Positions 24,204 through 27,390 of a stretch of DNA of 64,000 nt are shown one piece after another. Position numbers and translations under genes: made by a program. This stretch comes from an uncultured Burkholderiales bacterium (GTDB lineage: Bacteria; Pseudomonadota; Gammaproteobacteria; Burkholderiales; Burkholderiaceae_C): NCBI GenBank assembly GCA_903822825.1, contig CAIJQQ010000059.1, positions 1 through 64,000 on the forward strand, written 5' to 3'. The notes beneath the pieces were generated by a model, which had not been told where the DNA came from, searched no databases, and worked only from the letters and a program-made list of their open reading frames with translations. Positions within the stretch are counted from its first letter, which is position 1. Each line of letters begins with the position of its first letter.

Positions 24204-24641
24204 ATGCGTGCATTGAAAACCCCAAGCCCAAGCCGGCAACGCGGCTTCACCCTGATCGAGTTGATGGTCGTTCTGGCCATCATTGGCGTGCTCGCCGCCA
24301 TGATCGTGCCCAATGTACTGGGCCGTGCCGACGACGCCCGCGTAACGGCTGCACGCACCGACGTGAGCAACCTGATGCAGGCGCTCAAGCTCTACAAACT
24401 CGACAACCAGCGCTACCCCAGCCCCGAGCAAGGCCTGCAAGCCCTGGTCACCAAGCCTGTCAGTGAGCCCGTACCCGTCAACTGGAAGCCCTACCTCGAC
24501 AAACTGCCAGGCGACCCATGGGGCCGTCCCTACCAGTACATGAGCCCCGGCATCAAGGGCGAAGTGGATGTGTTGTCCTTTGGCGCAGACGGTCAGTCCG
24601 GCGGCGAGGGCCGCAATGCCGACATTGGCAGCTGGCAATAA
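24204..24641 (+). CDS. gspG: Type II secretion major pseudopilin GspG
   Basis: A 145-residue prepilin. The leader is 14 residues ending in RG, then FTLIELMVVLAIIGVLAAM, with Glu5 present for filament assembly. The DPWGRPYQYMSPG loop and C-terminal GEVDVLSFGADG stretch are the calcium-binding GspG hallmarks. Start 24204 gives a normal leader; a TTG at 24174 would lengthen it. It is first in the gspGHIJKLMNDE run and overlaps gspH. Confidence 0.95.
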   Translation: MRALKTPSPSRQRGFTLIELMVVLAIIGVLAAMIVPNVLGRADDARVTAARTDVSNLMQALKLYKLDNQRYPSPEQGLQALVTKPVSEPVPVNWKPYLDKLPGDPWGRPYQYMSPGIKGEVDVLSFGADGQSGGEGRNADIGSWQ

Positions 24642-25098
24642 ACCAGCGCGAGGCCCGTGGCGGGCCAAGCCAGCGCGCGGCTTCACCTTGCTGGAGCTGC
24701 TGGTGGTGATCGCCTTGATCGCGATCGCCACCGCCGGGGCCAGCTTGGCCTTGCGTGACAGCGCCGACAGTGCACTGGACCGTGACGCCCAGCGCCTGGC
24801 CGCCCTGCTTGAAACCGCCCGCGCCCAGGCGCGTGCCAGCGAACTCACGGTGGTCTGGCGCTCACAAGCATCCGGCTTTGTGTTCGATGGCCTGCCCACT
24901 CCCGGCCTGCCCCGCCAGTGGCTGGCAACCACGACGCAAGCGAGCGCAACCCCGATTGTGTTGGGGCCAGAACCTTTGATCCCGCCTCAGTCGATTGCCT
25001 TGTCGAGCAGCACGCGGCCCGATCGGCGGCTGTGGGTGGTGACCGACGGGCTGCGTCCCTTTGCTGTGCAAAACAGCCCCAGCATGGAGCAGCGCTGA
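24616..25098 (+). CDS. gspH: Type II secretion minor pseudopilin GspH
   Basis: A 160-residue minor pseudopilin. A 22-residue leader ends in ARG before FTLLELLVVIALIAIA. The start ATG lies inside the 3' end of gspG (26-base overlap), giving translational coupling. The rest matches GspH (LDRDAQRLAALLETARAQAR after the helix, then WVVTDGLRPF near the end). It ends in a TGATG junction with gspI. Confidence 0.9.
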   Translation: MPTLAAGNKPARGPWRAKPARGFTLLELLVVIALIAIATAGASLALRDSADSALDRDAQRLAALLETARAQARASELTVVWRSQASGFVFDGLPTPGLPRQWLATTTQASATPIVLGPEPLIPPQSIALSSSTRPDRRLWVVTDGLRPFAVQNSPSMEQR

Positions 25099-25586
25099 TG
25101 CGGTGGCCCCCTGTAGGCGCAACGCCCCCGTCGCGATGCTCCCCGCATGCCACCGCCCCATCGCCGCGAGGGCGCGGCTCCCACACGGACCAGGCCAAAG
25201 CGGCCCCTGTAGGAGCGACGCCCCCGTCGCGATGCACTGCACAAGGCTTCACCCTGATCGAGGTGCTGGTCGCGCTCAGCATCGTGGCTGTGGCCTTGAT
25301 GGCCGGGCTCAAAGCCACGGGCTCGCTCAGCACCAATGCCGAGCGGCAAAACACCAGCATGCTGGGCCAAATTTGCGCCGAAAACGAACTCATCCGCCTG
25401 CGGCTGCGCAGGCAACTGCCTGACACGGGCACCAACCTGATCGACTGCCCTCAGGGCGAACGCACCCTGCAAGTGAACCTGTCGGTGCGCCCCACGCCCA
25501 ACCCCAATTTCCGCCGGGTGGACGCACGGGTGCTCGACCAAGGCCAGTACGTCTTGCAACTGTCCACCGTCATGGGGCGCAACTGA
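25098..25586 (+). CDS. gspI: Type II secretion minor pseudopilin GspI with REP-extended leader
   Basis: A 162-residue minor pseudopilin. The mature part begins FTLIEVLVALSIVAVALMAG and continues like GspI (GQICAENELIRLRLRRQLPDTG). The leader is abnormal: from the only in-frame start (ATG 25098, overlapping the gspH stop) to the cleavage-site Gly there are 50 residues, and most are encoded by three REP copies (VGATPPSRC twice, SPRGRGSH once). No other ATG, GTG or TTG occurs in frame before FTLIE, so the repeat-coded residues should be translated. Function is probably kept, since the prepilin peptidase removes the leader. Confidence 0.9.
   Translation: MRWPPVGATPPSRCSPHATAPSPRGRGSHTDQAKAAPVGATPPSRCTAQGFTLIEVLVALSIVAVALMAGLKATGSLSTNAERQNTSMLGQICAENELIRLRLRRQLPDTGTNLIDCPQGERTLQVNLSVRPTPNPNFRRVDARVLDQGQYVLQLSTVMGRN
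25110..25235. repeat. Three REP-type repeats inside the gspI leader
   Basis: Copies at about 25110-25138 (forward), 25159-25186 (reverse) and 25206-25235 (forward). Forward copies read TGTAGGAGCGACGCCCCCGT then CGCGATGC; the reverse copy reads ATCGCCGCGAGGGCGCGGCT then CCCACA. Same family as 1608-1672 and 25606-25679. Confidence 0.85.
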
Positions 25587-26353
25587 TGAAGCGCTTCACT
25601 TTTTTTGTAGGAGCCGCGCCCTCGCGGCGATGCAGCGCCTCCACCACAGCCCCATCGCCGTGGGGGCGCGGCTCCCACAAAGCGCAAGCCAAGGGGTTCA
25701 CCCTGATCGAGGTCTTGGTCGCCATCAGCATCATGGCGCTCATGGCGCTCATGGCCTGGCGCGGCATCGACAGCATGTTGCGCACCCAATCGGGCCTGCA
25801 GCAAAGGGCCGACCAGATCCGCACCTTGCAAGCGGGCCTGGCGCAGTGGCAAACCGACCTCAACCAGATGGCCGAACTGCCAGGCACGCCCAGCTGGGAC
25901 TGGGACGGCAAAGTGCTGCGCCTCACGCGCCGGGCAGTGCAGCCCGCAGACGGCGTGCTGGTGGTCGGCTGGACCTGGCGCAGCAACCCGGCCCGGCCCG
26001 GCGGGGGCGACTGGCAGCGCTGGCAATCGGCGCCTTTGCAAACCGTTTTGGCCTGGCAAAACGCTTGGCAACTGGCCCAGGTCTGGAGCCAGACACCGAC
26101 GGCGGAGGCCCTTGTTGGCCAAGTGCAGATCCACCCGCTGTCGGGTTGGCAATTGTTTGTGCACCGGGGCGGCAACTGGACCAACCCCTTGTCGAACGAC
26201 GCTGTCAGCGCCGCGCCAACGCCTCCAGCAGCAGCAGCCGCCACCATCCCCGACGGCGTCAGGCTCATCCTGACTTTGCCCGCCGTCACACCCGTGGCTG
26301 GCCCGCTCACACTCGACTGGGTTCGCCCCAGCCTCTCGGGAGCCCCGGGATGA
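25586..26353 (+). CDS. gspJ: Type II secretion minor pseudopilin GspJ with REP-extended leader
   Basis: A 255-residue minor pseudopilin; mature start FTLIEVLVAISIMALMALMA, then the GspJ landmark WRGIDSMLRTQ. The C-terminal LTLDWVRPSL stretch also fits. The leader is 37 residues because a REP doublet (VGAAPSRRC forward, SPWGRGSH reverse) is inserted between MKRFTFF and KAQAKG. There is no start codon after the repeats in this frame. It overlaps gspI by one base (TGATG) and gspK by four. Confidence 0.92.
   Translation: MKRFTFFVGAAPSRRCSASTTAPSPWGRGSHKAQAKGFTLIEVLVAISIMALMALMAWRGIDSMLRTQSGLQQRADQIRTLQAGLAQWQTDLNQMAELPGTPSWDWDGKVLRLTRRAVQPADGVLVVGWTWRSNPARPGGGDWQRWQSAPLQTVLAWQNAWQLAQVWSQTPTAEALVGQVQIHPLSGWQLFVHRGGNWTNPLSNDAVSAAPTPPAAAAATIPDGVRLILTLPAVTPVAGPLTLDWVRPSLSGAPG
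25606..25679. repeat. REP doublet inside the gspJ leader
   Basis: A forward copy (TGTAGGAGCCGCGCCCTCGC then GGCGATGC, 25606-25633) and a reverse copy (CATCGCCGTGGGGGCGCGGC then TCCCACA, 25653-25679) lie in the coding frame of gspJ without adding a stop codon. Confidence 0.85.
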
Positions 26354-27390
26354 AGCGCCAGAACCCAAGGCAGCAAGGTGCCGCCTTGCTCAGCGCCATG
26401 GTCGTGGTGGCGCTGGTGGCCACCATCGCTTCGGCCGCGCTTTGGCAACAGTGGCGACAGGTTGAAATCGAAGCTGCCGAACGCGGGCGCAGCCAGACGC
26501 AGTGGATGATGACGGGGGCGCTCGACTGGACGCGCCTCATCCTGCGCGAAGACGCTTTGTCAGGGCAAGGCGGCAACGCCGACCACCTGGGCGAGCCTTG
26601 GGCATTGCCCGTGCAGGAGTCCAAGCTCTCCACCTTTTTGTCGCAAGACCAACAGTGGCACGAGGGCGATTCGGAGGTCTTTTTGTCTGGCCAAATCACC
26701 GATGCGCAGTCGCGCATGAACGTGATGACCCTGCTTGAAAACGGCCGCGTCTCGCCCGAGGCGCTGGCCCGATTTGCCAAACTTTTTCAGCGCCTGGACC
26801 TGCCCTTGGCGCAGGTGCCAGTGCTGGCCGCCCGACTGCAGCAGGCGGCTGCGCGCAGCGCGCCAGCCAATGCCACAGCGCCAGCCAGTGGCAGCAGCAG
26901 CACGCAGAGCAGCGCCCTCGCGGCTGACGCGCCACTGATGCCCCAGCAAACCCGCCAATTGGTCTGGTTGGGCCTGAGCGCAGACAGCTTGTCGGTGCTC
27001 ACGCCTTACATCACCTTGTTGCCCGTGCCCACGCCCGTGAACCTCAACACCGCGTCCGCCGCCGTGCTGGAAGCCATGGTGCCGGGGCTGGACGCAGCCG
27101 GGGCCAGCCAGTGGGTCAGCCAGCGTGAGCGGGGGCACTGGGCCTCGCTGGACGCGGCACGCCTTGCCCTGGGACCTGCAGGCAAAGGCATCGACGACAA
27201 ACTGCACTCGGTCAACAGCGCCTTTTTTGAGGTGCGCGGCCGCATGCGGATTGACCAAGTGGTGCAAGAAGAGTTGGCCCTGGTGCAGCGCGATGGCGGG
27301 CAAGTGCGGATGCTTTGGCGCGTTCGCAATGTCTCACGCGGTGCATCGCGCGAACCCACCCTGACCACAGACCCACGCCCCCTACAATGA
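26350..27390 (+). CDS. gspK: Type II secretion minor pseudopilin GspK
   Basis: A 346-residue pseudopilin, the largest of the tip complex (GspH-I-J-K). The leader is 10 residues (MKRQNPRQQG) before AALLSAMVVVALVATIASAA. As expected for GspK, Glu5 is absent. The large globular insert and a helix-hairpin-like segment (NLNTASAAVLEAMVPGLD) follow. A low-complexity Ala/Ser/Pro stretch lies near residues 175-195. The start overlaps the gspJ stop (ATGA). Confidence 0.92.
   Translation: MKRQNPRQQGAALLSAMVVVALVATIASAALWQQWRQVEIEAAERGRSQTQWMMTGALDWTRLILREDALSGQGGNADHLGEPWALPVQESKLSTFLSQDQQWHEGDSEVFLSGQITDAQSRMNVMTLLENGRVSPEALARFAKLFQRLDLPLAQVPVLAARLQQAAARSAPANATAPASGSSSTQSSALAADAPLMPQQTRQLVWLGLSADSLSVLTPYITLLPVPTPVNLNTASAAVLEAMVPGLDAAGASQWVSQRERGHWASLDAARLALGPAGKGIDDKLHSVNSAFFEVRGRMRIDQVVQEELALVQRDGGQVRMLWRVRNVSRGASREPTLTTDPRPLQ

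Follow-up and report, generated by a model that had tools for sequence, protein, structure and literature searches.

REPs are named for their extragenic position, and REPs that seem to encode the N-terminus of a protein are usually ascribed to wrong start calls. The stretch of DNA analysed here (the window, 64,000 nucleotides long) raises the question of whether such repeats can be genuine coding sequence and, if so, why they are found in one particular place. Profile matches and the sequence itself identify a gspG-H-I-J-K block in the window, and an earlier note had described three REP copies in the leader of gspI and two in that of gspJ, all in frame and free of stop codons. Both statements were confirmed from the sequence and by consensus matching. 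Below, G-numbers denote genomes, L-numbers denote loci, and the genome that contains the window, that of a freshwater bacterium, is called the study genome. The genes and the copies of the repeat, REP-A, are as follows (mismatches are to the REP-A consensus):

24204..24641, + strand: gspG, major pseudopilin with an ordinary 14-residue leader (TIGR01710, 183 bits; PF08334)
24616..25098, + strand: gspH, minor pseudopilin with a leader of 22 residues (N_methyl; TIGR01708, 64 bits, cut-off of 80 not reached)
25098..25586, + strand: gspI, minor pseudopilin (TIGR01707, 48.9 bits; PF02501; N_methyl)
25112..25138, + strand: REP-A copy 1 in the gspI leader, 1 mismatch
25159..25185, - strand: REP-A copy 2 in the gspI leader, inverted, in a BIME-like pair with copy 1, 0 mismatches
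25208..25234, + strand: REP-A copy 3 in the gspI leader, 13 nt upstream of the mature coding sequence, 0 mismatches
25586..26353, + strand: gspJ, minor pseudopilin (TIGR01711, 43 bits, below the cut-off of 64.85; N_methyl; position)
25606..25632, + strand: REP-A copy 1 in the gspJ leader, 0 mismatches
25653..25679, - strand: REP-A copy 2 in the gspJ leader, inverted, in a BIME-like pair with copy 1, 1 mismatch
26350..27390, + strand: gspK, with a 10-residue leader without repeats in the study genome (NF037980, 232 bits)

Repeats inside two pseudopilin leaders

The ATG codons of gspI and gspJ overlap or abut the preceding stop codon (TGATG), the gspI ATG being overlapped by the TGA of gspH. The gspI leader occupies positions 25098-25247 (50 residues) and mature GspI begins at 25248; the gspJ leader occupies 25586-25696 (37 residues) and mature GspJ begins at 25697. 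These lengths, and the 10-22 residues of the other leaders in the block, agree with those given before. Neither frame meets a stop on its way from the upstream ATG through the repeats to FTLIE, where the context G↓FTLIEVL, with Gly(-1), a hydrophobic stretch, Glu5 and a PF07963 match above its cut-off, is that of a class III signal peptide. The long leaders are probably translated from the top and cleaved.

The inverted pairs of the two genes have the same spacing of 59 nt (25112/25171 in gspI and 25606/25665 in gspJ). As had been claimed, there is no in-frame ATG, GTG or TTG within or past the repeats before the cleavage site of either gene, and in the forward copies the ATG within REP-A itself (GCGATG) does not fall in the coding frame. 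We consider downstream initiation in these two genes unlikely. Each copy lies whole within an ORF, in frame and in an intact gene, as is expected of an intragenic REP in the sense of Di Nocera and colleagues. It is also true that the copies read in one frame, but this is weak evidence by itself, because the gspI leader is open in five of the six frames and the gspJ leader in four of the six.

REP-A in the study genome

The REP-A consensus, TGTRGGAGCNNCGCCCYCGNNGCGATG, consists of a GTAG head followed by an imperfect palindrome within the 20-40 bp that are typical of REPs and BIMEs. In the window, a 15-mer search allowing 3 mismatches gave 23 matches against 23.5 expected, which is not significant, and the valid control is therefore the exact genome-wide count. 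The pattern TGTRGGAGCNNCGCC has 77+70 exact matches, 147 in total, in the 2.92 Mb assembly (89% complete), and the same pattern read backward has 0+0. Hence, REP-A is a dispersed repeat with the high copy number of RAYT-associated REPs and BIMEs. Inverted pairs are frequent and regularly spaced, mostly 55-66 nt apart from start to start (among the matches listed, 100 of 147). One such pair, at 1609-1670 of the window, is apparently intergenic. One contig of the assembly (G000:C20:2-72) opens with a REP pair, which suggests that REPs break this assembly and that their copy number is underestimated.

The surroundings of REP-A were read at 64 clusters with 104 copies by the exact pattern, or 106 by a looser one, among the matches listed (100 of 147), with genes called by codon statistics. 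Most of these clusters look extragenic and the five gsp copies are intragenic, so that the latter depart from RAYT-associated REPs in location and not in repeat identity. By the same codon heuristic, gspI and gspJ are the only clear cases in this sample in which no start codon follows the repeat.

Several other clusters touch genes in different ways. Nine, among the matches listed, lie upstream of a coding frame whose start is 8-68 nt past the repeat. L143 is one possible case of a REP coding for a C-terminus, the REPs at L158 and L160 extend 25 and 42 nt into the 3' end of a gene, L168 has a weak internal coding signal, and L022 was flagged at 2319. In four of the 64 clusters (L004, L005 twice and L151), the TGTAG head of REP-A apparently gives the upstream gene its TAG stop.

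Leaders of relatives and the age of the inserts

Relatives without an insert, which the earlier note had proposed to look for, do exist, and their leaders are mostly short. The named near relatives include Limnohabitans, and many members of the genus have leaders such as MKQRG↓FTLIE; the median distance from the upstream stop to the gspI motif is 32 nt over 73 genus rows, which are loci and not species, G087 (L034, L065) and G150 (L103, L104) being counted twice. All of the seven longest gspI distances in the genus (149-659 nt, 73 rows) contain dispersed palindromes, as do five of the six longest gspJ distances (110-275 nt, 75 rows), the sixth being L104. G150 has two GspI loci, and the gspJ of one of them (L104/L267) has a long leader. 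The leader contains an 11-bp hairpin without mismatches, GTGGTCGCTCA/TGAGCGACCAC, which may belong to a further repeat family.

Another locus set (L035-L062, L181-L260) includes a few genus members, for example L181. Some very long distances outside the genus (gspI of L055, L199 and L259, gspJ of L207) were products of the heuristic, and none was counted. At L199 and L055 the gspI distance included the gspH gene itself, and at L207 there were stops in the gspJ frame. Two records, L208 and L251, are titled as MAGs of Rickettsia typhi and Bordetella parapertussis; their gspI resembles that of comamonads and other Burkholderiales, and the species labels look wrong.

REP-A itself is present in gsp leaders of the study genome and of G221, which has 139 REP-A copies genome-wide, and in decayed form in G087. 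None of 2000 Markov controls matched the score of the remnant in the gspI leader of G087, and none of 5000 matched that of a half copy in its gspH leader, with a pattern picked after the copy had been sighted; gspJ of G087 also contains a putative remnant. Because the inserts are common to the sister G221 and remnants survive in G087, the REP-A inserts are old insertions in one clade. The tree behind this statement has several weak forks, and the G221 sequence in it is short (45% of columns). The claim that insertion had happened twice in adjacent genes counts one species, whereas the insertions belong to the clade.

Other repeat families in the same slot

Within the genus, four repeat families occupy the leader slot of gspI, gspJ or gspK: REP-A, REP-B, a dRS3-like repeat and REP-C. 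By reading of their consensus sequences, REP-A and REP-B belong to the GTAG class, REP-C to its GTGG form and the dRS3-like repeat to the CGTC class. REP-B (GTAGGTCGG...) is present in 7 of 90 genomes, with 1158 exact matches in G152, 95 in G156 and 541 in G164. It lies in gspI of all three, in gspJ of G152 and G164, and as arrays in gspK of G152 (5 copies) and G164 (10 copies). G171 falls inside the REP-B clade and has no insert, which indicates that an insert was lost. The dRS3-like repeat is found in gspI of G172 and G191 (5 and 17 exact matches genome-wide) and REP-C in gspJ of G161 (79 matches).

A fifth repeat, the CCCCCGAGGGGG-type (D-type), lies near the starts of gspH, gspJ and gspK at other loci and is partly untranslated. 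It precedes the motif in gspJ of L035, L057, L202 and L245, in gspK of L037, L052 and L188, and in gspH of seven loci. The frame is open and no start follows in L035 gspJ, L037 and L188 gspK and L192 gspH; a later start is present in L057, L202 and L245 gspJ and in L052 gspK. At gspH, three of the seven copies lie in a closed frame, and L192 alone combines an open frame with the lack of a later start. Exact copies of the 15-mer number 47 in G070 (L057), 37 in G238 (L202) and 0 in the backward control. L035, L037, L052 and L245 match a 12-mer only, and these assignments, like those of L188 and L192, are tentative.

Several of the genomes also contain candidate mobilisers. REP-A flanks RAYT-type transposase genes in G221, G156, G171, G163 and G192, and REP-B flanks such genes in G164 and G152. 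Two of the latter, L305 (G164) and L315 (G152), sit within long REP-B arrays and are likely the mobilisers of REP-B in these genomes. The 89% complete assembly of the study genome has a single Y1_Tnp match, without REP flanks. The flanked genes make it plausible that RAYT enzymes drive the insertion.

Open frames and start codons under REP-B arrays

The REP-B arrays produce leaders that are far longer than those in the window. In G164, a leader of 221 residues precedes a mature GspI of about 112 residues, and the gspJ leader has 47 residues from the ATG at the gspI stop. In GspK, 13 residues precede RGAALL in G156, 20 in G171, 135 in G152 and 250 in G164. The leader arrays of 405-750 nt (G164 gspI and gspK, G152 gspK) have no stop in the coding frame and 0-9 stops in the other frames; each of the G164 leaders has one further open frame. 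Nine REP-B arrays of 390 nt or more were sampled elsewhere in those genomes, and just one of them has an open frame at all. Only long arrays discriminate on frame, because shorter ones (125-357 nt) are often open, five of seven having at least one open frame. Copies in the leader arrays recur every 135 or 138 nt, except for a final gap of 143 nt in one case, and 5 of 16 arrays elsewhere have a period that is a multiple of three. As a single event probably gave rise to the gspK arrays of both G152 and G164, the frame evidence amounts to about three independent arrays. This pattern is what would be expected if selection acts on the frame, and it indirectly favours translation of the residues encoded by the REPs.

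A different possibility is that translation begins within or past the repeats, at an internal ATG, GTG or TTG, at a non-standard codon or by bypassing, and that the repeats are mostly untranslated. Many N-terminal REPs are indeed held to be misannotated starts by Di Nocera and colleagues (PMC3733652, consulted in part). With REP-B, five in-frame ATG codons have entered gspK of G152 and six that of G164. Starts are also present within the gspI arrays and inside several other arrays, so that later initiation is possible in the relatives. Past the last repeat, gspI of G152 and G156 has a GTG 21 codons before the motif, gspI of G172 has a TTG 4 codons before it, and several of the CCCCCGAGGGGG-type cases listed above have such a start as well. 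No in-frame start follows the last repeat in gspI and gspJ of G221, gspI, gspJ and gspK of G164, gspJ and gspK of G152, gspI of G191 or gspJ of G161. The internal gspK ATGs lack GGAG, AGGA or GAGG at 5-16 nt upstream, whereas the top ATGs have one, although this is a simple test that the top ATGs of G152 and G164 gspI fail too. The context of the upstream ATG is the same in species without inserts, most clearly for gspJ, and the frame is kept over long arrays. Together with the absence of any start within or past the repeats of gspI and gspJ in the window, these observations make initiation downstream of the repeats a quite improbable general explanation.

Divergence and folding

A comparison of the study genome with G221 shows how the leaders change. 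Leader lengths are equal and there are no stops. The differences at the first, second and third codon positions number 3, 5 and 4 in the gspI leader and 7, 8 and 11 in the gspJ leader, against 4, 6 and 22 in mature gspI and 10, 0 and 27 in gspH. Mature gspI and gspH are thus under purifying selection, whereas the leader peptide sequence appears to drift freely with frame and length kept. Since the gspI leader has diverged no more than the mature gene (92% identity versus 91%), the lack of leader constraint rests on 12 and 26 changes.

The same data bear on whether the repeats simply mark relaxed selection on the dying genes of a decaying T2SS. GspI was matched in 76 of the 90 genus genomes and is without a match in 14, including 6 of the 56 good-quality ones, as might be expected of a system on its way out. 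However, the substitution pattern, with changes in mature gspI and gspH mostly at third positions and open frames, already contradicts decay, and the gspG-K family matches in the window are intact. We regard decay as highly improbable.

The earlier note had further suggested that folding of the repeats in the mRNA lowers tip-pseudopilin levels. The predicted accessibility of the SD-ATG region is 0.40-0.45 in the study genome and G221, which falls inside the range of five comparison starts (0.21-0.59). Lower start-codon accessibility was rejected on these grounds, and the suggestion is unsupported at the start codon. In a broader form, the repeats might be kept as junction RNA elements that tune mRNA stability or tip-pseudopilin stoichiometry, their coding being incidental. 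The repeats would be hairpins in the transcript, and an RNA function is ascribed to REPs at gene junctions (PMC3733652, in the part consulted). The start regions of gspI and gspJ fold more strongly in the study genome (-92.6 and -102.5 kcal/mol) than do the five used for comparison (-70.6 to -86.3 kcal/mol), with -88.7 and -86.1 kcal/mol in G221, which has inserts, and the closed frames of three of the seven D-type copies at gspH point the same way. A purely RNA role would, however, have no need of an open frame across 750 nt, and it agrees poorly with the fast turnover of families, copy numbers and lengths (GspK leaders of 13-250 residues, loss in G171), with unreduced SD-ATG accessibility and with the empty junctions described below. 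On balance, a role as junction RNA elements is rather improbable.

Where repeats are absent

The gspK/L, L/M and M/N junctions were free of the scanned repeats wherever they were readable in 12 operons (the window, G152, G164, G191, G161, G087, G150, G163, G192, G162, G160 and G171; the contig of G156 was too short). The K/L junction was likewise free of them in 63 further loci (family and named). A scan of 900 nt upstream of prepilin genes in G152, G164 and G163 gave 29 rows, of which 12 were gspG-J and one, L347, was dropped as it has no motif; REP-A or REP-B was present in 0 of the 16 leaders outside the gsp operon. The idea that any prepilin leader is a niche was rejected on this result. 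REP-A was also absent from gspG-gspN of the REP-rich G163 (1004 copies), G192 (565), G162 (84) and G160 (57), and from the leaders read in G203 (322 copies). In G163, three REP-A copies lie 580-667 nt upstream of the gspG motif.

Taken together, the empty K/L, L/M and M/N junctions, the empty leaders outside the operon and the REP-rich operons without inserts indicate that the slot seems to need both a start codon at the preceding stop and a disposable N-terminus. The view of the leader as a permissive niche for REP spread, put forward in the earlier note, is thereby strengthened by the four families and the extension to gspK, and narrowed by the 16 empty leaders elsewhere.

A discarded leader as a probable slot for repeats

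The inserts, their frames, families, copy numbers and distribution, and the substitution pattern are read directly from the DNA. The probable explanation for them is a tolerated, frame-filtered insertion of repeats into a cleaved class III leader. REPs would settle preferentially just behind stop codons, and because the start codons from gspH to gspK overlap or abut the preceding stops, a REP that lands there would enter the 5' coding sequence of the next gene. Such an insertion may survive where that gene begins with a class III leader, since the hydrophilic stretch would stay in the cytoplasm and be removed by the prepilin peptidase after Gly(-1). All that is still demanded would be that the frame stays open and that the start and the G↓FTLIE junction are preserved. 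With so few demands, the slot would gather whichever repeat family is active in a lineage, at times as arrays, and then lose it. Independent insertion events are few, as events inside one clade are not independent.

A bolder version, which we think unlikely, sees in the leaders of GspI, GspJ and GspK, the tip pseudopilins, an evolutionary sink where unrelated families of palindromic repeats have repeatedly become coding sequence. The resulting cytosolic leader would in some lineages have gained a role, such as a delay of tip assembly or a titration of the prepilin peptidase.

Genes without a start in or past the repeats, combined with different families in the relatives, are an experiment of nature on the needs of a prepilin leader, which are apparently only the frame and the G↓F junction. 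The leaders also allow a direct assay of how much length is accepted by the prepilin peptidase and by the SRP/Sec route, and selfish repeats could be recruited as coding sequence under a 'discarded product' rule.

Comparison with known systems

Among openly licensed literature screened by title, no report of REPs in prepilin or pseudopilin leaders came up; one may exist in other sources, Additional file 3 of PMC3733652 among them. The words 'pilin' and 'signal peptide' are absent from the main text of that paper, as far as consulted.

Class III leaders of type 4 pilins are hydrophilic, end in Gly or Ala and are cut by the prepilin peptidase; their length varies and is greater in type IVb pilins (PMC10191384, in the part consulted). 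The leaders of S. sanguinis have 8-18 residues (PMC6497953, in the part consulted), compared with 37-250 residues here.

The repeats themselves resemble RAYT-associated REPs and BIMEs in having a GTAG or GTGG head, a palindrome, inverted pairs, more than 100 copies and, in relatives, a REP-flanked transposase gene, and the described elements are normally extragenic (PMC2817692, in the part consulted). Rickettsial palindromic elements (RPE) are likewise palindromic DNA in frame in protein genes, some of the N-terminal copies being expressed, according to work that PMC3733652 cites. They differ in families and hosts and are spread over many genes, whereas the gsp repeats focus on a cleaved leader. 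RPE-4 and RPE-6 of Rickettsia conorii belong, with the neisserial dRS3, to the CGTC class, in contrast to the GTAG heads of REP-A and REP-B, a comparison made by description only (PMC3733652, in the part consulted).

The closest parallel are the intragenic GTAG and CGTC REPs, which come from the same superfamilies and lie in frame within genes as dimers and clusters. According to the consulted part of PMC3733652, REPs prefer sites just behind stops, and their GTAG ends provide stop codons; intragenic copies occur in repair and other genes, the larger REP-coded stretches have 43-82 residues, and related genes are mostly hit at different sites, Xanthomonas recB excepted. Here, in contrast, several families enter one discarded segment of adjacent genes, the open leaders reach up to 250 residues, and the genes of the study genome have no later start. 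In summary, intragenic REPs are known, and what appear to be new are the recurrent use of a leader slot and the size of the leaders that result.
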